NCBI GenBank assembly: GCA_011033025.1
Contig: WFMF01000022.1
Location: 434,001-498,000, forward strand
Source: Beroe forskalii
Lineage: Eukaryota; Ctenophora; Nuda; Beroida; Beroidae
Length of the DNA: 64,000 nt
Direction of reading: 5' to 3'
Positions 5,400 to 46,500 of this stretch are shown piece after piece; positions within the stretch are counted from its first letter, which is position 1; each line of letters begins with the position of its first letter. The translations under genes and the position numbers were made by a program. Under the pieces are notes generated by a model. It was not told where the DNA came from, made no database searches, and worked only from the letters and a program-made list of their open reading frames with translations.

Positions 5400-6690
5400 T
5401 ACTTGGGATTTGTGGCATATTGAGGTCGAATATCATGATATCAATGCCATCATATCAATGCCATCTATTGGTTAGATGAACTCGTGAAACGTTGACGCTC
5501 TGATACGTTCCTTCTGATCTCAGACTTTATACAGCATTCCTTCAAAGTGAAGCATATTGTTCTCAATTCGATCGATTATGAGCTCATGAAGTAATTAGTT
5601 GGCAAGACAATTTATATTGCTCTGATGTCGATGACAGTGATGAAATCTTAATCATCACCGATAAAAATTTGAAAGAAAAAAGGGCCTCTGAGACGTTTTT
5701 ATATAACGTTTCATATACTCTAATTCTACACTGTTTTAGACCTAAACACTTTTTAACTTAGAAAAGCTTGCAAAAGTTAAAAATAATAAAACGATAATGG
5801 CTCTGTATTGCATCACCCTTCTTCTGGCAATTATCTTTGTTCCACTTGTGAATATTAGGATAATTTAGGGCGTTAAATTCAGGCACATCAATTAAAAGCT
5901 CTGAAGTCAAAACTTGGGTCTTTCGTTGACAATACTCTGTTGTTCCACTAATGGAGGAACTTTCTACCTACAGTCCTTATTGTGACGTTCCAATGAGTAA
6001 TGGGATAATTGCTGAATTATCTGATCACAGTATTATTATTATTTGACAATTACTGGGTGTCAGGCTATGAACGATCAATTGTCGAATAATTGGCAATTTC
6101 ATTCTAATATTCCGTAGTTATATTGGTGCTAAAATGGAAAATTGTTGGCTAATTTTCAACTGTTGACCTCGTACCAATAACTAAATAACGCAATTAAACA
6201 GTCATGCTTCGGAAAAAAGGAAAATATAGAACAGTCGTTTAAATTAGTCAGTCTTCAATTAGTGGTCGGATATTAGAAATGAAGGGAAACTTACAATCTG
6301 GGTTTGTGAAGAGAAGCACAATTCCTATAACTATAAACCAACATTCGACACAATAGCCGTTCAGAATTTTTAAATGACTAAATGGTTCAAAGACAAAATT
6401 TGTCTTTTACCCAAGATGGACCTACTGACCTAATATGGGAAACATTTAAAATTCCTTGTAAAATGAATCCATTTTGAATTGATGGACTTACACAATTGAT
6501 GGACTTACACAAATTCAATTTTGTGTGAGGGAAATGTCCATCAATTTAAAATCGATTCATTTTCAATTTTCATGGACGTGATGAGGCGATTACCATTAAT
6601 TGGAGCAAATGCGGAATTCAATGCCCATCAACTGAACTGTAAGGTCTGATGGATCCATATTTTAGGTAGAATGGACAGTGCAAGCGTAGT
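5400..6690. other. Intergenic, no gene seen
   Basis: AT-rich sequence without coding signal. A short hairpin-like repeat of TGATGGACTTACACAA and its partial inverse lies near 6480-6540. Confidence 0.5.
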
Positions 6691-6698
6691 GCCTTTTC

Positions 6699-6935
6699 CT
6701 AATGCCTTCCTAACTGTTTCGTGACAACTGGCCATTAACCGTCCGTCTATGTGATCCATATTAGGCCATCGACTTAAAATTACATCATAATGCTCAAGAT
6801 AATTTTAAAATTTTGTAATTGAGGTTACGAGAATCTTCTGGCCTGGATGGATCCCGTCGTAGGTCAAATCCTGCATCCATTGAACACATCCAATTGAAAT
6901 TGACAATAATAGGCATTATTGGAATTGTGTCAAAT
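6699..6935. repeat. 3' flank of CAP-like gene 2, duplicated copy B
   Basis: Partner of 2471-2720 with the same sequence order and small indels. It lies about 220 bp past the stop of the second CAP-like gene. Confidence 0.8.
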
Positions 6936-7158
6936 TGAACCTTGTCCATTGGAATACGAGCAGCGATCGAGCTATTGGACAAGATTCAAAAGTCGTGTGA
7001 CACTTCTGACTTCCATCAAAATACAATAAATAAGCAATAAATTTAATACATAATGCATTAAACCAGTCCAGCTTTACCAGTGACCCATGTTCGTTAATTC
7101 GTTGTAGTTATACATTATGTATGTATACAATCGGCATATAATAGTCATACAATAAGCG

Positions 7159-29900: not shown

Positions 29901-32900
29901 GATCTTTCCCAGATGTCTTGTTCTAGAATAGGACCTCTAAAAGGACTGACATTTGTGAATAATAAGACTTAAAAAAGGACTGACATTTGTGAAACCTCAT
30001 GAGAGATATTCAAATTTCACACACGATCATATCTTGCAGCTTCGAAGGACCGGGCTGCAGAACTGAAATCCAAGATAAACGAACGTATGGCTAACCTCAA
30101 CCTCCCCATCCTAACCAAAGGGCCGTGTTTGGATAAGGAAGGACGGGCTACTGATGCGTCCGGCAAGACATTGACAGTAGTTAAGCACGAACCAACCCTC
30201 AAGGTATGTTTAGTGCACATTGAATCTTTCATTTTCAAACGCGAAACGGAGATGCGTGCTACGAATTGCTTGCCCTTAATAATTCATCAAGAAATTCAAT
30301 CTCCTGGATTATCATATCTATATTTGCAAATTCACAAATATATACCATTTCCTAGATCAATCTTCGTGAATCCAAACGGAAGAACTTTAAAATAGAGAAG
30401 CCTGATGACAACCAGACGGTCACCAACCCCTACTTCGATCCTCGGATGAAGTAAGTATTCAAATACACTACCTTACGTGACATAATTAACAATTATGTGG
30501 AACGAAACTTGGGGATTTTCTTTCGAAAATTACCCATATTTGCGCACCCTATAAAATCTCAAAATGACGTCATCATCGTACGTTATCATGGGCAATATCG
30601 GAAAAATCCCTATATTTTTTAAATTATAGGGATGTCTTTATTAATTTTCATCACACATAAATAATATGTCTAGTGAAGTATTTTACTCAGAAAATATACT
30701 CAGAGAATGCGTACTATTGTACTCAAAGAATGGCCAAAATCTAAGGCTTTTCTTACAATAATATGAATAGCACACATACATATTTTGAATATCGTTTAAT
30801 TATTATGCTTAATTTAAATCAATTAATTTTAATTAGAATACGACAAAAGCCCAGAATAGTTTCACTTACTGCTCCCTCCTTTATAATACCCATCTCCGCA
30901 ACTCACTTCACTATCAGTAAAGTCTATTATCTTCAGAATCAAAGCACCACAACGTCAGTCCCGAGCCATGAAGTTCAATGAAGCTGGCAAGTTCATCCAG
31001 ATCGCCCAGAAACAGCGAGCCCAGAGCAAGCTGGAGGAACTGCAGCGGAAGATCGCAGCTACGGCAAAGAAAACGGGTATTTCAACGGTCGCTAAGCGAG
31101 TCATGCTGACAGACGATACCGTGGCGGTAGGTGTACACACTAAACTCCGCACGCTAGGAATAGGCGGTTCAACGTCATCAACTCACCACATCATGATATG
31201 ATAATGACGTCATTTCAACCGCTTATTTTTCGTGCGCGGTGGTATATTAAGTAATTAAGTGAACGAAGTGTGAGTAGTGTGGTTAATGCCTAGTGGAGTC
31301 AGGGAGTACGGATTGTGTGTGAAAATTACAGTACACAAAGCCAGCACATGCTGTAAAACAATGCGTTGTCATTAGCATAGTCACCAGTCGTAGGAGCTCA
31401 ATAAGGTTATTTTTAGAGTGAAAATATGTGAAAATGAGCCGTTGCCCACATAGAATTTTCACATTTTTGATTCAATTACGTTGTATAACTCTATTGCTAT
31501 GATGTTTTTGCGGATTGCTTTACACTTCATATAACTCTTGATATACTTGAGTTCTTGAAAGAGAGCCAAAGAATATTGTCTTTTTGGTCACCTCTTCGAT
31601 ACGGGCCCTCATTCCATTATCCAAGTTAAAGTTGTTACTTGTTGCACACAACTCAGTAACTCATCCCTTAGCAGCCAGTGCCCTCATCCAATACCATAGT
31701 TGAGTTGTAGCTCAGTAAAGCAGTGACGTGCATGATCCCCTCCCCATAATTGAGAATTTTTAACTCCTAACGCATCCCCTCCCTCGCCCAGAAAGACGAC
31801 CCAGTCCCCGACATAGAGTGGTGGGATAAGTTTATCCTTGTCCGTGAGTCGTATGACACGTACGAGCAGCCTGTGTCTGAAGAGGAGATGTTGGGTGCGG
31901 TGACGCACCCCAAGTACCGGGAGATAACGCACCTGATCGAGCACCCTGTGAGCAAGGCACCCCCCGGCAGTACTCAGACAGTGCCACCTCACTCCATCGT
32001 GCTGACGAAGAAGGAGCGGAGGAAGCTCCGGACACAGCGGCGTCTGGAGAGACAGAGGGACGAACAGGAGAAGATACGACTTGGACTCATCCCTCCCCCG
32101 CCTCCTAAGGGTATTTACTATATACTTAGTACTTGTTTATATGACAAATTGTTTCACTATTGTGCAGATGCTGAATTATGTTGTATCGAAAGATTAGATT
32201 CCTTGACATCTTGGAAAGTTTCAGGGACTTATACTCCTCTAAAATATTACTTCTTTACCTATTCAGATAGTCTAACACGCCGTATCGTTTCAGTTCGTAT
32301 AGCTAACCTGATGAGGGTGCTGTGTTCGGAAGCCGTTACACTTACCATCGTTTCAGTTCGTATTGCTAACCTAATGAGGGTGCTGTGTTCGGAAGCCGTT
32401 ACACTTACCATCGTTTCAGTTCGTATAGCTAACCTGATGAGGGTGCTGTGTTCGGAAGCCGTTACACTTACCATCGTTTCAGTTCGTATTGCTAACCTAA
32501 TGAGGGTGCTGTGTTCGGAAGCCGTTACACTTACCATCGTTTCAGTTCGTATCGCTAACCTAATGAGGGTGCTGTGTTCGGAAGCCGTTACACTTACCAT
32601 CGTTTCAGTTCGTATAGCTAACCTGATGAGGGTGCTGTGTTCGGAAGCCGTTACACTTACCATCGTTTCAGTTCGTATTGCTAACCTAATGAGGGTGCTG
32701 TGTTCGGAAGCCGTTACACTTACCATCGTTTCAGTTCGTATAGCTAACCTGATGAGGGTGCTGTGTTCGGAAGCCGTTACACTTACCATCGTTTCAGTTC
32801 GTATTGCTAACCTAATGAGGGTGCTGTGTTCGGAAGCCGTTACACTTACCATCGTTTCAGTTCGTATCGCTAACCTGATGAGGGTGCTGTGTTCGGAAGC

Positions 32901-35900
32901 CGTTACACTTACCATCGTTTCAGTTCGTATTGCTAACCTGATGAGGGTACTGTGTTCGGAAGCCGTTACACTTACCATCGTTTCAGTTCGTATTGCTAAC
33001 CTGATGAGGGTGCTGTGTTCGGAGGCTGTTACACTTACCATCGTTTCAGTTCGTATCGCTAACCTAATGAGGGTGCTGTGTTCGGAAGCCGTTACACTTA
33101 CCATCGTTTCAGTTCGTATTGCTAACCTGATGAGGGTGCTGTGTTCGGAAGCCGTTACACTTACCATCGTTTCAGTTCGTATCGCTAACCTAATGAGGGT
33201 GCTGTGTTCGGAAGCCGTTACACTTACCATCGTTTCAGTTCGTATTGCTAACCTGATGAGGGTACTGTGTTCGGAAGCCGTTACACTTACCATCGTTTCA
33301 GTTCGTATTGCTAACCTAATGAGGGTGCTGTGTTCGGAAGCCGTTACACTTACCATCGTTTCAGTTCGTATTGCTAACCTAATGAGGGTGCTGTGTTCGG
33401 AAGCCGTTACACTTACCATCGTTTCAGTTCGTATTGCTAACCTGATGAGGGTGCTGTGTTCGGAAGCCGTTACACTTACCATCGTTTCAGTTCGTATCGC
33501 TAACCTAATGAGGGTGCTGTGTTCGGAAGCCGTTACACTTACCATCGTTTCAGTTCGTATTGCTAACCTGATGAGGGTACTGTGTTCGGAAGCCGTTACA
33601 CTTACCATCGTTTCAGTTCGTATAGCTAACCTGATGAGGGTACTGTGTTCGGAAGCTGTTACACTTACCATCGTTTCAGTTCGTATCGCTAACCTAATGA
33701 GGGTGCTGTGTTCGGAAGCCGTTACACTTACCATCGTTTCAGTTCGTATTGCTAACCTGATGAGGGTACTGTGTTCGGAAGCCGTTACACTTACCATCGT
33801 TTCAGTTCGTATTGCTAACCTAATGAGGGTGCTGTGTTCGGAAGCCGTTACACTTACCATCGTTTCAGTTCGTATTGCTAACCTAATGAGGGTGCTGTGT
33901 TCGGAAGCCGTTACACTTACCATCGTTTCAGTTCGTATTGCTAACCTAATGAGGGTGCTGTGTTCGGAAGCCGTTACACTTACCATCGTTTCAGTTCGTA
34001 TCGCTAACCTAATGAGGGTGCTGTGTTCGGAAGCCGTTACACTTACCATCGTTTCAGTTCGTATAGCTAACCTGATGAGGGTGCTGTGTTCGGAAGCCGT
34101 TACACTTACCATCGTTTCAGTTCGTATTGCTAACCTGATGAGGGTACTGTGTTCGGAAGCCGTTACACTTACCATCGTTTCAGTTCGTATCGCTAACCTG
34201 ATGAGGGTACTGTGTTCGGAAGCCGTTACACTTACCATCGTTTCAGTTCGTATAGCTAACCTGATGAGGGTGCTGTGTTCGGAAGCCGTTACACTTACCA
34301 TCGTTTCAGTTCGTATCGCTAACCTAATGAGGGTGCTGTGTTCGGAAGCCGTTACACTTACCATCGTTTCAGTTCGTATAGCTAACCTGATGAGGGTGCT
34401 GTGTTCGGAAGCCGTTACACTTACCATCGTTTCAGTTCGTATTGCTAACCTAATGAGGGTGCTGTGTTCGGAAGCCGTTACACTTACCATCGTTTCAGTT
34501 CGTATTGCTAACCTAATGAGGGTGCTGTGTTCGGAAGCCGTTACACTTACCATCGTTTCAGTTCGTATTGCTAACCTAATGAGGGTGCTGTGTTCGGAAG
34601 CCGTTACACTTACCATCGTTTCAGTTCGTATTGCTAACCTAATGAGGGTGCTGTGTTCGGAAGCCGTTACACTTACCATCGTTTCAGTTCGTATTGCTAA
34701 CCTAATGAGGGTGCTGTGTTCGGAAGCCGTTACACTTACCATCGTTTCAGTTCGTATTGCTAACCTAATGAGGGTGCTGTGTTCGGAAGCCGTTACACTT
34801 ACCATCATTTCAGTTCGTATTGCTAACCTAATGAGGGTGCTGTGTTCGGAAGCCGTTACACTTACCATCGTTTCAGTTCGTATCGCTAACCTAATGAGGG
34901 TGCTGTGTTCGGAAGCCGTTACACTTACCATCGTTTCAGTTCGTATCGCTAACCTAATGAGGGTGCTGTGTTCGGAAGCCGTTACACTTACCATCGTTTC
35001 AGTTCGTATTGCTAACCTGATGAGGGTACTGTGTTCGGAAGCCGTTACACTTACCATCGTTTCAGTTCGTATTGCTAACCTAATGAGGGTGCTGTGTTCG
35101 GAAGCCGTTACACTTACCATCGTTTCAGTTCGTATAGCTAACCTGATGAGGGTGCTGTGTTCGGAAGCCGTGCAGGACCCCACTAAAGTGGAAGCTACTG
35201 TCAGGGCTCAGGCTGCAGAACGGCAGAAGAAACACGAGAAAGCTAACTCTGACCGGCAGTTGACCAAGGAGCAGCGCAGTGCTAAGAAGGTGGCAAAACT
35301 TACAGAGGACACCTCGCAGGGCGTCCACATAGCTGTCTTCAAGTGAGTACGGGATAACCGTGTGTATTGCTGTGTAAGTTCTGTCTTCAAGTGAGTACGA
35401 GATAACCGTGTGTATTGCTGTGTAAGTTTTGTCTTCAAGTGAGTACGGGATAACCGTGTGTATTGCTGTGTAAGTTCTGTCTTCAAGTGAGTACGGGATA
35501 ACCGTGTGTATTGCTGTGTAAGTTCTGTCTTCAAGTGAGTACGGGATAACCGTGTGTATTGCTGTGTAAGTTTTGTCTTCAAGTGAGTACGGGATAACCG
35601 TGTGTATTGCTGTGTAAGTTCTGTCTTCAAGTGAGTACGGGATAACCGTGTGTATTGCTGTGTAAGTTCTGTCTTCAAGTGAGTACGGGATAACCGTGTG
35701 TATTGCTGTGTAAGTTCTGTCTTCAAGTGAGTACGGGATAACCGTGTGTATTGCTGTGTAAGTTCTGTCTTCAAGTGAGTACGGGATAACCGTGTGTATT
35801 GCTGTGTAAGTTCTGTCTTCAAGTGAGTACGGGATAACCGTGTGTATTCGGGTGTATTGCTGTGTAAGTTCTGTCTTCAAGTGAGTACGGGATAACCGTG

Positions 35901-37259
35901 TGTATTGCTGTGTAAGTTCTGTCTTCAAGTGAGTACGGGATAACCGTGTGTATTGCTGTGTAAGTTCTGTCTTCAAGTGAGTACGGGATAACCGTGTGTA
36001 TTGCTGTGTAAGTTCTGTCTTCAAGTGAGTACGGGATAACCGTGTGTATTGCTGTGTAAGTTCTGTCTTCAAGTGAGTACGGGATAACCGTGTGTATTGC
36101 TGTGTAAGTTCTGTCTTCAAGTGAGTACGGGATAACCGTGTGTATTGCTGTGTAAGTTCTGTCTTCAAGTGAGTACGGGATATCCGTGTGTATTGCTGTG
36201 TAAGTTTTGTTTATTCTTCAATTTATTTGAGTATTTGCGAGAATTCCCCTATCACCATAGTTTACACCAACTCCAGCAGCCTTTTTGCTTACAGCTGTTC
36301 GTATCAAAGGTGAGTGGTGATTGAGCTCGAACCATCAATGTCAATAATATTTTAAAGGTGCTCCATGTATTTGTATTTACTATTTCACTGTATCTTATTT
36401 CACTGCATCGTATTTGGCTGTATCCCATAACCCCGACTATTTCGCAAGATTGACAACCTGAGTAACCCGCAACACAAGTACAAGGTAGAAACTAACGCCA
36501 CCCAATACATGCTGACTGGTCTCATGATGACGGGCAAGGACAATAACATTGTGGTGATAGAGGGTGGCCCCAAAGCCCTCAGGAAGTTCAAAAGACTCAT
36601 GATGGTCAGGATCAAGTGGGACGAAGACGTCCGTTCTAGCAGGAAAAGTAAGTTAAATGGAGTGATTGTTTGATGTTTCTTTTAGTTGATGTTCATTCGA
36701 TCAGATTGCTTTTATTGACAATCTACGAGAAAAGAAGATGTAGTGAGTGAATTTTGTAGAAATTCTATCATAATGGTGCTGCTGTTTAGGATGGTCAGTT
36801 GTTCTAACCTGACTAACAGCTCTTATTTCACAGATGTTGAAGACGATAAGAAGCCCAAGAATCAGTGCAAACTTATATGGGAGGTAGGTTTTGGTATAGA
36901 TGATATCGTAAATCATTTTAATCAAAATTATCTCGAGAAAAGTTATCGGAAAGGTGCAATTATTAGATGATATGATCACCAATTTGGTATGTATATATTG
37001 AACTATTTGATGTACTGTTTTCTATTAAAATCTGAGTATTTGATACCGTTTGAGCCCATATTTGAATTCTCACAACTTTGAAAATACCCACCATCCCTCC
37101 CTATCACAGGGTACTCGCAAGACACGGTACTTCTCGAAGTGGAACACGAAACACATCCTCGGAGACCCTTCCTCTGCCAAGGAATACCTCTCCAAGTTCA
37201 ACTGCCAGAACTTCTGGGACCTGGCTGTGTGTGAGAATATCGTGGCTGAAGAAGTCTGA
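26944..37259 (+). CDS. PRPF3: U4/U6 snRNP protein PRP3 (PRPF3), 13 or more exons
   Basis: Spliceosomal protein of the U4/U6.U5 tri-snRNP. Coding exons: 26944-27067, 28207-~28340 (end uncertain, 28340 or 28370), 28474-28546, 28968-29109, 29287-29462, 30040-30203, 30356-30450, 30937-31126, 31792-32110, 35129-35342, 36449-36647, 36834-36883, 37110-37259 (TGA). All junctions read are GT-AG and in phase, except exon 10 to 11, which is one base out of frame. With that base the protein would be about 676 residues, close to the roughly 680 of animal PRPF3. Family marks: a PWI-like N-terminus ([17 protein letters not shown]), [20 protein letters not shown], the PRP3 core ([41 protein letters not shown]) and the C-terminal domain ([44 protein letters not shown]). 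ATG follows an acceptor-like TTTCAG, so a 5' UTR intron is likely. Confidence 0.93.
28055..28178. mobile_element. TTCGAACTGC-family MITE, copy 2, in PRPF3 intron 1
   Basis: The termini CAGTTCGAACTGCAGTTT and CAGTTCGAACTGCAGTTTAG (inverted) are nearly perfect. The interior has CGCGGCG/CGCCGCG and GACAT/ATGTC pairs. Its right end lies only about 28 bp upstream of exon 2. Confidence 0.85.
31145..31241. repeat. CRE-containing hairpin element, copy b, in PRPF3 intron 8
   Basis: The arms CTCCGCACGCTAGGAATAGG and, inverted, CCGCGCACGAAAAATAAGCG, each followed by GGTT, flank a centre with CRE TGACGTCA at 31205-31212. It starts 18 bp after the exon 8 donor. Same design as 24196-24280. Confidence 0.75.
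32286..35170 (+). repeat. 63-bp tandem array of a 3' splice site plus first 42 nt of PRPF3 exon 10 (46 copies)
   Basis: The copies of TTCGTATNGCTAACC start at 32294 and recur every 63 bp to 35129, which is 46 copies; the last is the real start of exon 10. Each unit holds CATCGTTTCAG (the acceptor), 42 nt of exon 10 (encoding [15 protein letters not shown]) and a 21-nt linker TTACACTTACCATCGTTTCA G. 63 is 21 codons, and the array is open in the PRPF3 frame from exon 9 through to exon 10, including the 180 bp of intron before it. Units differ at a few sites (ATA/ATT/ATC, CTG/CTA, GTG/GTA, GAA/GAG, GCC/GCT), all third positions. One Val-to-Ile change (near 34806) falls in the linker. No internal donor is conspicuous. 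Confidence 0.97.
35335..36208 (+). repeat. 48-bp tandem array of the PRPF3 exon 10 5' splice site (18 copies)
   Basis: Each unit is GTCTTCAA|GTGAGTACGG followed by GATAACCGTGTGTATTGCTG and TGTAAGTTCT. It therefore repeats the last 8 nt of exon 10, its donor GTGAGT, and a second donor-like word GTAAGT. Copies start at 35335 and recur every 48 bp, with one 10-bp insertion near 35848; the last begins at 36161. In the gene frame each unit brings TGA right after Phe-Lys, so use of a later donor would end the protein. The minus strand stays open through the array but this has no coding meaning I can support. Confidence 0.97.
36261..36309 (+). other. Candidate 49-nt cassette exon of PRPF3
   Basis: Bounded by CACCATAG upstream and CAAAG|GTGAGT downstream. 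Its length is 3n+1, and inclusion between exons 10 and 11 would restore the reading frame lost in the direct canonical join, adding about 16 residues before KIDNLSNP. The added residues interrupt a conserved stretch, so the model is speculative. Confidence 0.25.
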
Positions 37260-37969: not shown

Positions 37970-38911
37970 CTAATAGACAAAGGGTTTAAAGTTTCTTTGG
38001 TATTCCGTTACCCACAATCCAGACTTATTTGTTTTATTGATCGTGAATAGTGCCTCTCCAAATAGTTTCATCGGGATTTGACTTTGTGTTCCGTTCGTTT
38101 TCTTGGCAGCCTTCTTTTTGCTCAAGCTCAGTTTCTCTCGGTCGTGTTTCGCTTTGAGGGCAGACTTGTGAACCCCATTTCTCTGTGCAACATTGAAAGT
38201 TTGCTTCTTGCTTCCCGTGTTCCTGCCATACATTACAAATGGCGGCTGTTTCTCGTCTTTTTCTTGAAGTGTGATGTTAACCGTTGATGGCGGGGCAGAA
38301 ATTGGGCGTTCAATCGGGGATTTGGTTTTGACACTTTTCGTGAGAACTGATTTTGGTAATTCAGGACTAAGTTTGTGTTTGGTATGTCGTTCTGGGCTTT
38401 TCTTGATCGGACTTTTGGGTTCTGGGCTCTTTTTTGTTGCAGCTTTTTCGACATTTGTTTGTTTGGTCGGATTGATATCGATGCGGACGGAATACCCCTG
38501 ATTCTTTGCTTCCGATGCGTCCTTGAAATGCGAATTTATCCTTTGAAGACAACACGACTGGGTGCTACATTGACACTTTTCATCTATTGCCGCTGTTTCA
38601 GGAACTGTCAGTTTGTCCGATGAGCTGCCTTTCAGAACGTTTTCCGTTGCAACCTTTTCTGGAGTCATCTTTCCTGTCTTTATCTTCTTCGTTTCCGTAT
38701 TCTTGTCTTCGCCATCTTCACCGCCCTGTTTTTCTCCCACTTTACCGTCTTCTGTCCCGGCAGTGGTTGCTTTCTGGTTCCAGTGGATTGGAGTGTGATT
38801 TGCACTGACCCACATGCGGTTCTTGCGTTCCTTTACCATCTGAAAGTAGTTAGATCTTGTATCCTCATCCCATAACACCCTCCCATACTTTGACTCGTAC
38901 TCAGTCTTCAT
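37970..38911 (-). CDS. KSP-rich basic protein with SEYQ-like ends (possible microtubule-associated, MDM1/SAXO-like)
   Basis: A single-exon ORF of 313 residues. The N-terminus (TEYESKYGRVLWDE) and the C-terminal WVTEYQRNFKPF both resemble the (S/T)EYQ..F motif of microtubule-binding proteins such as MDM1 and SAXO. Between them are a Lys/Glu-rich linker, a Cys cluster (KCQCSTQSCC, ~residues 112-121) and a central block with repeated KSP/SPE (KKSPEPKSPIKKSPERH), typical of proline-directed phosphorylation sites. It is low-complexity and likely disordered. The orthologue is not identified. It sits 0.7 kb past the convergent end of PRPF3. Composition and absence of stops across 940 bp support coding. 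Confidence 0.7.
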   Translation of the reverse strand: MKTEYESKYGRVLWDEDTRSNYFQMVKERKNRMWVSANHTPIHWNQKATTAGTEDGKVGEKQGGEDGEDKNTETKKIKTGKMTPEKVATENVLKGSSSDKLTVPETAAIDEKCQCSTQSCCLQRINSHFKDASEAKNQGYSVRIDINPTKQTNVEKAATKKSPEPKSPIKKSPERHTKHKLSPELPKSVLTKSVKTKSPIERPISAPPSTVNITLQEKDEKQPPFVMYGRNTGSKKQTFNVAQRNGVHKSALKAKHDREKLSLSKKKAAKKTNGTQSQIPMKLFGEALFTINKTNKSGLWVTEYQRNFKPFVY

Positions 38912-39958
38912 CTCACATATGATTTTCTCTCTAGTTGTCCTTTAAAATCATTCTTACAAATGAAATAACCCTCCTAAGGGCTCCATACAGGTGTAAAATT
39001 TCTGGGATGGAAGCTGAAAGTACTATGAAACGAAATATTGGCTCGCAATTGTATTGTGATGTGTTGCGATAGATTTGCTCCTTTATAAAGAAAATTTTAA
39101 AAAGAGCAGATAAACAAATTTTGAATTGGCCACTTGGAGCCAATGTGGACTACTGAGAATTTAAAGGACCATACTATCTTTTCGAATAACCTTGACTTTT
39201 CGAAACGGTCTTCGATTTCGGACATTTTGCTGATGTGTCAGCAGTTTGCGCACGTACGTTTATGGACATTGGCGTGTAGAATTCATATCAGTTACGCGGT
39301 TAAAACCAATAGAACGGAAGTTTTGATGACGCAATTGAAGGATTTTCTGTAATTCGTGAAATTTCGTGCCCCACACAGCCTGAAGTGCTACAAAATCTTC
39401 TATTTGAGCCAAATGCGGTGGATTATGATGAATTTCTATAATGAAGATAAATTTAATATTGATCAGGTAAGTGTAGATGTTGATCAAGAAGTCTATAATG
39501 ATAGAGTTGAAGAAGATTGTCCTCAATGTTGGATAAAAACAACTGCTGTAGCTTCCAGTAATCATATGACTTGCTAACTAACTCTCGATGCACAATTACA
39601 TCAGCCTGGCGTAGGGTTCCATAAAGATCAAACTGGAACTAGAAGCGACAGAAATCATGAGATGTAGCCTAAAGATCGGGTGTTCATGCTTTTCTCTTCT
39701 TTGTCCCACCTTCTAATGACTTGTATGAAATTGGAAAGAAGCGATTAGTAGTCCAGCTAATAAGAAACATGTGTCTCTATACAGGTTAACGTAACAATGG
39801 TATTAATTGGATTCTCCCACTTTCAGACAATATCCAAGACCACCCTGGTCTGGTTGCTATGGTAACCCACACCAGATTGCACGTTACAAATTGTAATGTG
39901 CACACATTTCAAATGTTATCTCTGTGCAGTTGATTGTTACACTGTTGTCGCCGCCACA

Positions 39959-43572: not shown

Positions 43573-46500
43573 TCAGTTCAATATCAAGAACAGGGAAAGG
43601 ACAACAGTCGACAGACACACTGCCTGAGACCCGGCTGAGTTGGGGTTGTCTTTGATGAAGTCCGGCTCGTCGGTAATCAGGTTGTAGTTGTCCATGCTGT
43701 CGTAGATCTCTTCCAGTTGGACACTGTTCACGGCTTTGAACTGAAAGATATTCCATAATTTAAGCTTTTAAGGTAGCTCAGAAAAAAGGTGCCAGATTGA
43801 GATAACAGTCAATGTGAATTCTAGCAAAAAACTGATGCACCATAAAAACGTGGTTATCCACAATATAATGTTATAAAAGGCAATGTTATTATGTCGCGCC
43901 TACCTCAGTGTTGAAGTCGTCCAGTGCTTCGAGTGCTGCACGTAGTCCTTCAGTTACATTAGCATCGTTCAGCAGAGATATCTCCCTGGAGTTAGAAAAC
44001 TTTTTAAAACCAAGAGGAGACTGACGATGTTCCACACAGTAAGAGACCACTTAGAAAGTGGTCTCAGGAGTTAGAGTTCATTAATATACCTTCGCACTTC
44101 AAGAGCCGTGCACGTAACGCCTGAGCCGTGCGAGGGCAGGGAATTATAAATTTCTATGACATTATCATTGTTCAGAAGAGATATAACCCTAGAATCGTTG
44201 GTATACGTTCAATAAAATGATTTACCAGACAACTATACAAATATAGACATGTCATTTTAATGTGTCCGATAATGAGCAAGGAAGATATACAGTAACCGTG
44301 GTGTTGAAAGTTCACCGATGCAGTGGCAAGGAAAGGTTACTCTGTATCATACTAATAATTAGAGAAATGCTAATGTACCAGGCGTATTTATTGTAGCGCA
44401 TGCAGTTGCAAATACTGGCAAACGTATACAGACTGACTGACAAAAACTGACTGACACACACTGACTGACACACACTGACAGACACACACTGACAGACACA
44501 CACTGACTGACACACACTGACTGACACACACTGACTGACACACACTGACAGACACACTGACAGACACACACTGACTGACACACACTGACTGACACACACT
44601 GACAGACACACACTGACTGACACACACTGACTGACAGACACACTGACAGACACACACACTGACTGACACACACTGACAGACACACACTGACAGACACACT
44701 GACTGACACACTGACAGACACACACTGACAGACACACACTGACTGACACTGACAGACACACTGACAGACACACACTGACAGACACACTGACAGACACACA
44801 CTGACAGACACACTGACAGACACACTGACTGACACACACTGACAGACACACACTGACAGACACACACTGACTGACACACACTGACAGACACACTGACAGA
44901 CACACACTGACAGACACACACTGACAGACACACACTGACAGACACACACTGACAGACACACACTGACAGACAAAAACTGACTGGCACACACTGACAGACA
45001 CACACTGACTGACTGACACACACTGACTGACACACACTGACTGACACACACTGACTGACACACACTGACAGACACACACTGACAGACACACACTGACTGA
45101 CACACACTGACTGACACACTGACTGACTGACACACACTGACTGACACACACTGACTGACAAAAACTGACTGACACACACTGACGGACACTGACTGACACT
45201 GACTGACTGACACACACTGACTGACACACACTGACAGACACACACTGACAGACACACACTGACTGACACACACTGACAGACACACTGACAGACACACTGA
45301 CAGACACACACTGACAGACACACACTGACTGACACACACTGACAGACACACACTGACAGACACACACTGACAGACACACACTGACAGACACACACTGACA
45401 GACACACACTGACTGACACACACTGACTGACACACACTGACAGACACACTGACAGACACACACTGACTGACAGACACACACTGACTGACACACTGACAGA
45501 CACACACTGACAGACACACACTGACTGACACACACTGACAGACTGACACACACTCACAGACACACACTGACAGACACACACTGACAGACAAACTGACAGC
45601 ACACACTGACAGACACACACTGACAGACACACACTGACCTGACAGACACACACTGACTGACACACACTGACACACACTGACTGACACACTGACTGACACA
45701 CACTGACAGACACACACTGACAGACACACACTGACAGACACACACTGACAGACACACTGACAGACACACACTGACTGAAACACACTGACTGGCACACACT
45801 GACTGACACACACTGACAGACACATACTGACAGACACACACTGACTGACACACACTGACTGACAAACACACGTACGTTTCTCCTGTGTAGGGAGCGACTG
45901 ACTGGCCGTTCCAGCACTTCTCGTTGTCACTGTGACTGCTGAACCGCCCGCAGTGGATCTCATCCAAGTTACCCAGCATTCCTACCATGAAGTTACCGTT
46001 AAACAGCTTCTCTCGGATCTGACTGGTTTCAGCACTCCTCCGGTGTCTGGCTAGGTTGGTAGCTACGTCATACCCACACTGAAACAGACGCGATATTTGG
46101 TGAACTATTTGTTGGAGCGAGTCAACAATAGATCGAAAATTTAGGTCGAATTCCTCCTCTTTTTTCAATAAACTTCTGCAAATTCTAATTCGATGATACT
46201 ATGCAGGACCACATTCGCAGTAATATCTAAGAGTAAAGACAGAACTAAGTGTAAGAAAAAAGCGGCACCCCTCCACGGAGGGTTTTCAATCAAATCAAAA
46301 TGTAGGCTGTATTCCCATTCTACCCACCAAAACAGCAGTTTCGTTGTTGTTCAGCTTGGTAGAGATCTTCTGAATGGTTCTGGACAGGCCATCCTGGTAT
46401 ATCTTAGCGAACTTATCCAAACTGTCCATGACTTTCTCCGTCAAGTTGGCGTATTCCTCCCAAGTGTCGGCTACTTCAGCCAGGTGAGAGTAGCACTGAC

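Follow-up and report, generated by a model that had tools for sequence, protein, structure and literature searches.

How does a gene fare when the acceptor of one of its exons is offered dozens of times in succession? The question is raised by PRPF3 in the ctenophore Beroe forskalii, within a stretch of 64,000 nucleotides (nt) from contig WFMF01000022.1 of assembly GCA_011033025.1 (positions 434,001 to 498,000 of the forward strand), here called the window. In this gene, one exon of a core splicing factor is preceded by an array of 46 acceptor copies and followed by an array of donor copies. Both arrays are probably mirage minisatellites of the kind described in amphioxus, with the acceptor array normally spliced out together with the intron and the protein an ordinary PRPF3. 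This reading, the most likely of those considered, rests on the anatomy of the locus, the unbroken numbering of hPrp3 and of the family PF08572 across the array, the amphioxus precedent, similar donor arrays at two further exons elsewhere in the genome, the general abundance of arrays, and a donor array that is closed by a stop codon.

Anatomy of the arrays around exon 10

The alignments on both sides of the acceptor array identify the host gene as PRPF3. Ahead of the array, the alignment with human hPrp3 (3jcr_K) ends at residue 475, in array copy 46 it continues from residue 476, and the numbering of PF08572 likewise runs unbroken from exon 9 into copy 46 (71-174, then 175-220), in agreement with the gene named in an earlier note on this DNA, whose exon numbering is kept here. 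Because neither numbering is interrupted, a PRPF3 product without extra copies would be the conserved one. Comparison of the exon 10 protein with the 216-Mb assembly returned a single match.

A script located 46 copy starts (TTCGT) in succession, from 32294 to 35129 at a constant step of 63 nt, and in all 46 the start is preceded by CAG, giving the acceptor CAG/TTCGT (the slash marks the boundary); the CAG positions are invariant across units 1-45. The 63-bp unit is made up of 43 nt of exon head and a linker of ~20 nt akin to the upstream intron end, two thirds of the unit being coding sequence of the PRPF3 exon. Copy 46 shares the 43 nt with the other units and then runs on as exon 10 proper. 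Compared with the last 22 nt of the upstream intron, before copy 1, the linker is identical at 15 of 22 positions. None of the 935 other stretches ending in CAG on the window's + strand does as well, the maximum among them being 14; judged by this comparison, the linker is a copy of the 3' end of that intron that has since diverged. In the PRPF3 reading frame, each of the 45 full units is open. The earlier note had proposed just such a unit, an acceptor joined to a PRPF3 exon head and a linker, in frame and open, and both Tandem Repeats Finder (TRF) and the listing of the 63-nt units bear this out. Units 1-45 vary at six sites (8, with three bases, 17, 26, 38, 41 and 57), and three of these sites make up eight haplotypes in an irregular order along the array.

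On the other side of exon 10, in each unit of the donor array, the final 10 nt of exon sequence are followed by GTGAGT as donor and by 32 more intron bases; the boundary reads CTTCAA/GTGAGT, and CTTCAAGTGAGT is present in 18 of 18 units. Exon 10 is flanked by copies of its own acceptor upstream and of its own donor downstream. The PRPF3 frame stops at 35346, where an in-frame TGA (AAG TGA) overlaps the first donor; only this first donor therefore gives an uninterrupted protein, and any later donor, if used, would put a stop codon in frame. Neither the donor array nor a better-scoring in-frame AG upstream of the acceptor array, discussed below, had figured in the earlier note.

Table 1. Coordinates of the PRPF3 exons and arrays in the window, and of two further donor arrays in the same genome.
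Feature	Position	Strand	Description	Basis
PRPF3 exon 9	31792..32110	+	ends AAGG, phase 1; PF08572 positions 71-174; hPrp3 377-475	splice-site positions
End of intron upstream of copy 1	32267..32293	+	directly after AG 32265-32266	frame check
Acceptor array	32284-35171	+	period 63, 45.8 copies, 97% matches, 0% indels	TRF; unit listing
PRPF3 exon 10, continuous with array copy 46	35129..35342	+	214 nt; PF08572 positions 175-220; hPrp3 residues 476-547	
Donor array	35333-36210	+	48 bp x 18	TRF; unit listing
Predicted 49-nt exon	36261..36309	+	would restore the frame between exon 10 and the conserved exon that follows	best in-frame path, approximate splice matrices
Next conserved PRPF3 exon (Prp3_C domain)	36449..36647	+	PF06544 positions 4-66 in tested stretch 36446-36655	splice-site positions
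46-bp donor array, citrate synthase exon end	C110:82982-83310	minus	units of ~39 nt exon + 7 nt intron	Pfam E 1.3e-8
49-bp donor array, WWE-domain exon end	C67:11143-11613		first unit ends exon; three 40-bp units	Pfam E 2.2e-16

Mirages in amphioxus and related cases

Mirages were described in amphioxus as tandem repeats that span exon-intron boundaries, many but not all of which carry a splice signal (PMC3087553). In PRPF3, the array unit spans an exon-intron boundary of the host gene on both sides of exon 10, and the units carry splice signals in the acceptor and donor arrays alike. The named amphioxus hosts are Adh3, the globins BflGb6 and BflGb9, and further TnC and PGBD5 (PMC3902484), with units ranging from 10-72 bp in Adh3 to 150-160 bp in the globins (PMC3087553; PMC3902484). 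The mirage of BflGb6, in which the 3' end of an intron and the 5' part of an exon are repeated (PMC3087553), has the same layout as the PRPF3 acceptor array, so that the earlier note's view of the arrangement as undescribed does not hold. While BflGb6 has 6 or 3 units depending on the haplotype, the PRPF3 arrays have 46 and 18; PRPF3 further differs from the amphioxus mirages in carrying arrays at both ends of one exon and in an acceptor unit of 63 bp that is in frame and open. Data on Adh3 and reverse-transcription PCR of the globins are reported to suggest that mirages leave regular splicing undisturbed (PMC3087553; PMC3902484), yet some of the copies could still serve as cryptic sites, and mirage length is unstable (PMC3087553). 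Among the outcomes the earlier note had considered, tolerance of the array because the last or the first acceptor always wins appears to fit these precedents best.

A human counterpart may be seen in the minisatellite of IFI6 (6-16, G1P3), which offers multiple splice donors and is reported to yield isoforms through two downstream repeat units (PMC4526556, citing Turri et al. 1995). The likeness lies in a minisatellite that supplies multiple splice sites; those of IFI6 are donors only, whereas the PRPF3 array supplies mainly acceptors. Intron gain through internal tandem duplication reportedly occurred in the potato RNA-dependent RNA polymerase (RdRp). For human genes, internal tandem duplications have been linked to gene changes and intron gain (PMC2812944). 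In such cases the duplication touches exon-intron boundaries, as it does in PRPF3. Unlike the cases of intron gain, PRPF3 has an array that adds length to an intron or exon already present. A related but different claim is that tandem repeats in introns are concentrated near intron-exon junctions in plants and especially in two green algae (PMC3887541). The DDX3Y/MSY2 minisatellite was set aside as a parallel, being a promoter-side minisatellite and not a splice-junction array (PMC3039753). A literature search of limited depth brought to notice no junction-spanning array outside lancelets and human. With the PRPF3 arrays, exon-boundary minisatellites would reach a further, apparently separate animal lineage, at a larger scale and at both ends of a splicing-factor exon. 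The arrays would also show, in a natural setting, how the spliceosome selects one of dozens of near-identical 3' splice sites, i.e., whether it takes the first one made or the one nearest the exon.

Weighing removal against translation of the acceptor array

If both arrays are mirages, a short stretch across each splice junction would have been duplicated in tandem. The left seed would have comprised ~20 nt of intron end and 43 nt of exon head, the right seed 10 nt of exon tail and 38 nt of intron, and the arrays would have grown through unequal exchange. The acceptor array would then be spliced out with the intron, copy 46 and the first donor bounding an ordinary exon of 214 nt. If another acceptor copy were occasionally used, the protein would grow by 21 residues for each copy included, with the frame preserved.

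Several observations weigh against this account. One concerns splice-site strength, scored here with an approximate weight matrix: copy 1 scores -2.1 and the other array copies 1.8-2.0, while the AG at 32265-32266, upstream of the array, reaches 7.5 and is the best of the acceptors compared. The 46 equivalent acceptors announced in the earlier note are present as 46 copies of CAG/TTCGT, but equivalent they are not, copy 1 being weaker and the upstream AG stronger than all of them. Use of this AG would turn the whole acceptor array into coding sequence that is open in frame; the frame stays open as far as the first donor whether the exon begins after the AG, at copy 1 or at copy 46, and such an exon would be 3076, 3049 or 214 nt long, respectively. 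Furthermore, the donor of exon 10 (35343) is in phase 2 but the conserved exon that follows (36449) starts in phase 0, leaving the two out of frame without an extra predicted exon. Enumeration of the paths between them, limited to donors scoring above 0, acceptors above -6 and no more than one added exon, yielded seven that stay in frame; the best (sum 8.8) uses the predicted 49-nt exon, and the second-best (sum 7.7) splices from a donor at 35290, within exon 10, and would lose conserved residues. Two features of the acceptor array could mean translation: 6 of 7 substitutions, counting two changes at site 8, are synonymous in the PRPF3 frame (P 0.003-0.005), and none of 45 units carries an indel, against 5 of ~38 in three comparison arrays (P 0.017). 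Finally, an enrichment of donor arrays across the genome was not reproducible, as two patterns disagreed relative to their controls. Spaced AGGTAAGT triplets numbered 347 against 49 for the reversed control, AGGTGAGT ran in the opposite direction (1132 against 3626 for the control), and for the acceptor pattern there were 3076 matches, with 2026 for its control. Most of these counts come from long arrays, each matching repeatedly, and for this reason no enrichment is claimed.

Taken at face value, the open frame throughout, the strong upstream acceptor, the synonymous changes and the lack of indels would favour an acceptor array that is exonic as a whole, with AG 32265-32266 or copy 1 in use and PRPF3 gaining ~945-954 residues of a 21-residue repeat. 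This is nevertheless unlikely, as the conserved PRP3 domain would be split between profile positions 174 and 175 and an internal exon of 3049 or 3076 nt would be required. The bias in substitutions is also met in the donor array of citrate synthase, where 5 of 7 are synonymous (P 0.004-0.012) although its 46-bp period cannot hold a frame and it contains a stop and a one-base deletion. Because an array that breaks the frame has the excess too, synonymous excess is not a mark of translation and was rejected as proof of it. The donor array at the WWE-domain exon has 6 of 12 (P 0.06-0.15), and no difference is seen between the 6:1 ratio of PRPF3 and the 11:8 of the two controls pooled (P 0.36). 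The control counts, 5:2 with one 1-base deletion for citrate synthase and 6:6 for WWE, come from visual inspection of the listed units, each distinct change being taken once, and the WWE count omits a change of the last exonic base, in a split codon, and a third-position change inside a 40-base unit. The units may instead retain the synonymous history of the exon itself, through exchange with it. As for the indels, the comparison comprised 9 citrate synthase units, including the copy of the exon itself, 11 WWE units, of which three have 40 bases and from which the exon copy was excluded, and the 18 units of the PRPF3 donor array. The acceptor array is the least diverged of the four, with TRF matches of 97% against 96, 94 and 90, and since the arrays differ in divergence, the contrast may perhaps partly reflect array age.

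Alternatively, the acceptor array could act as a ladder in which several copies are used and PRPF3 lengths differ by 21 residues. The practically equal scores of the acceptors after copy 1 and a period that preserves the frame speak for such a ladder, as do the isoforms reported for human IFI6. The open frame is weak evidence for it, however, because two thirds of the unit are coding already; by our arithmetic, a period divisible by three together with an open linker of seven codons would be expected in about a quarter of such arrays. The regular splicing reported for amphioxus mirages, and a matching donor array that is unable to act as a ladder owing to its in-frame TGA, make such use of the acceptors quite improbable. 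Taking the two together, it is rather unlikely that PRPF3 comes as a set of graded lengths, or contains as many as ~950 residues of a translated repeat whose frame selection has kept open; were it so, the pre-mRNA of a core splicing factor would itself carry ~46 nearly equivalent in-frame acceptors.

It is very improbable that the array, or its length, is an artefact of assembly. A draft assembly was reported as aberrant at one mirage in the paper on the globin mirages, while the irregularly ordered haplotypes and six variable sites of the PRPF3 units are unlike a looped copy of one unit, and similar arrays are found at the citrate synthase and WWE exons. A 22-nt micro-intron in each unit (GCC/GT...CAG) was also considered and dropped, as we know of no animal precedent for introns of 22 nt.

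Arrays elsewhere in the window and the genome

The two donor arrays outside PRPF3 have periods of 46 and 49 bp, and as these are not multiples of three, neither can be an in-frame ladder. Past the citrate synthase array, the next stretch of that gene stayed below the cut-off for PF00285 (15.9 of 27 bits). Among the matches listed for the AGGTAAGT pattern, at least ten array places were found, and five of these were examined, two on C1 and one each on C67, C110 and C122; those on C110 and C67 lie at Pfam-supported exon ends, and no exon was identified at the other three. Tandem arrays are common both in the window and in the eight other stretches examined, which were taken from neighbouring parts of C270 and from C50. 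Among the arrays listed for these stretches (period of at least 9, at least 2.5 copies), all have match percentages below the 97% of the PRPF3 acceptor array.

Within the window, a 14-bp array of 104 copies (44428-45869) begins ~6 nt from a donor-like GTACGTG that follows a minus-strand open frame. An identity of the frame beside this array (46198-45872, minus) as glypican, suggested by eye only, was not retained; the longer frame gave no Pfam family, and three PDB matches had E values of 0.22-0.28. Adjoining PRPF3, the frame 37970-38941 on the minus strand matches the Pfam family CCSAP (centriole, cilia and spindle-associated) with E 2.1e-14. Elsewhere in the assembly, a single-gene mitochondrial chromosome pointing to a calcareous sponge was considered for C1134 and dropped, because this contig carries an ND-type match at 6316-6960 in addition to COX1. 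A compact, divergent mitochondrial genome in which TGA encodes W would fit a ctenophore. The match on C1134 is the sole one to COX1; TGA is read as W in it, and by eye it appears divergent and unlike the COX1 of amphioxus.

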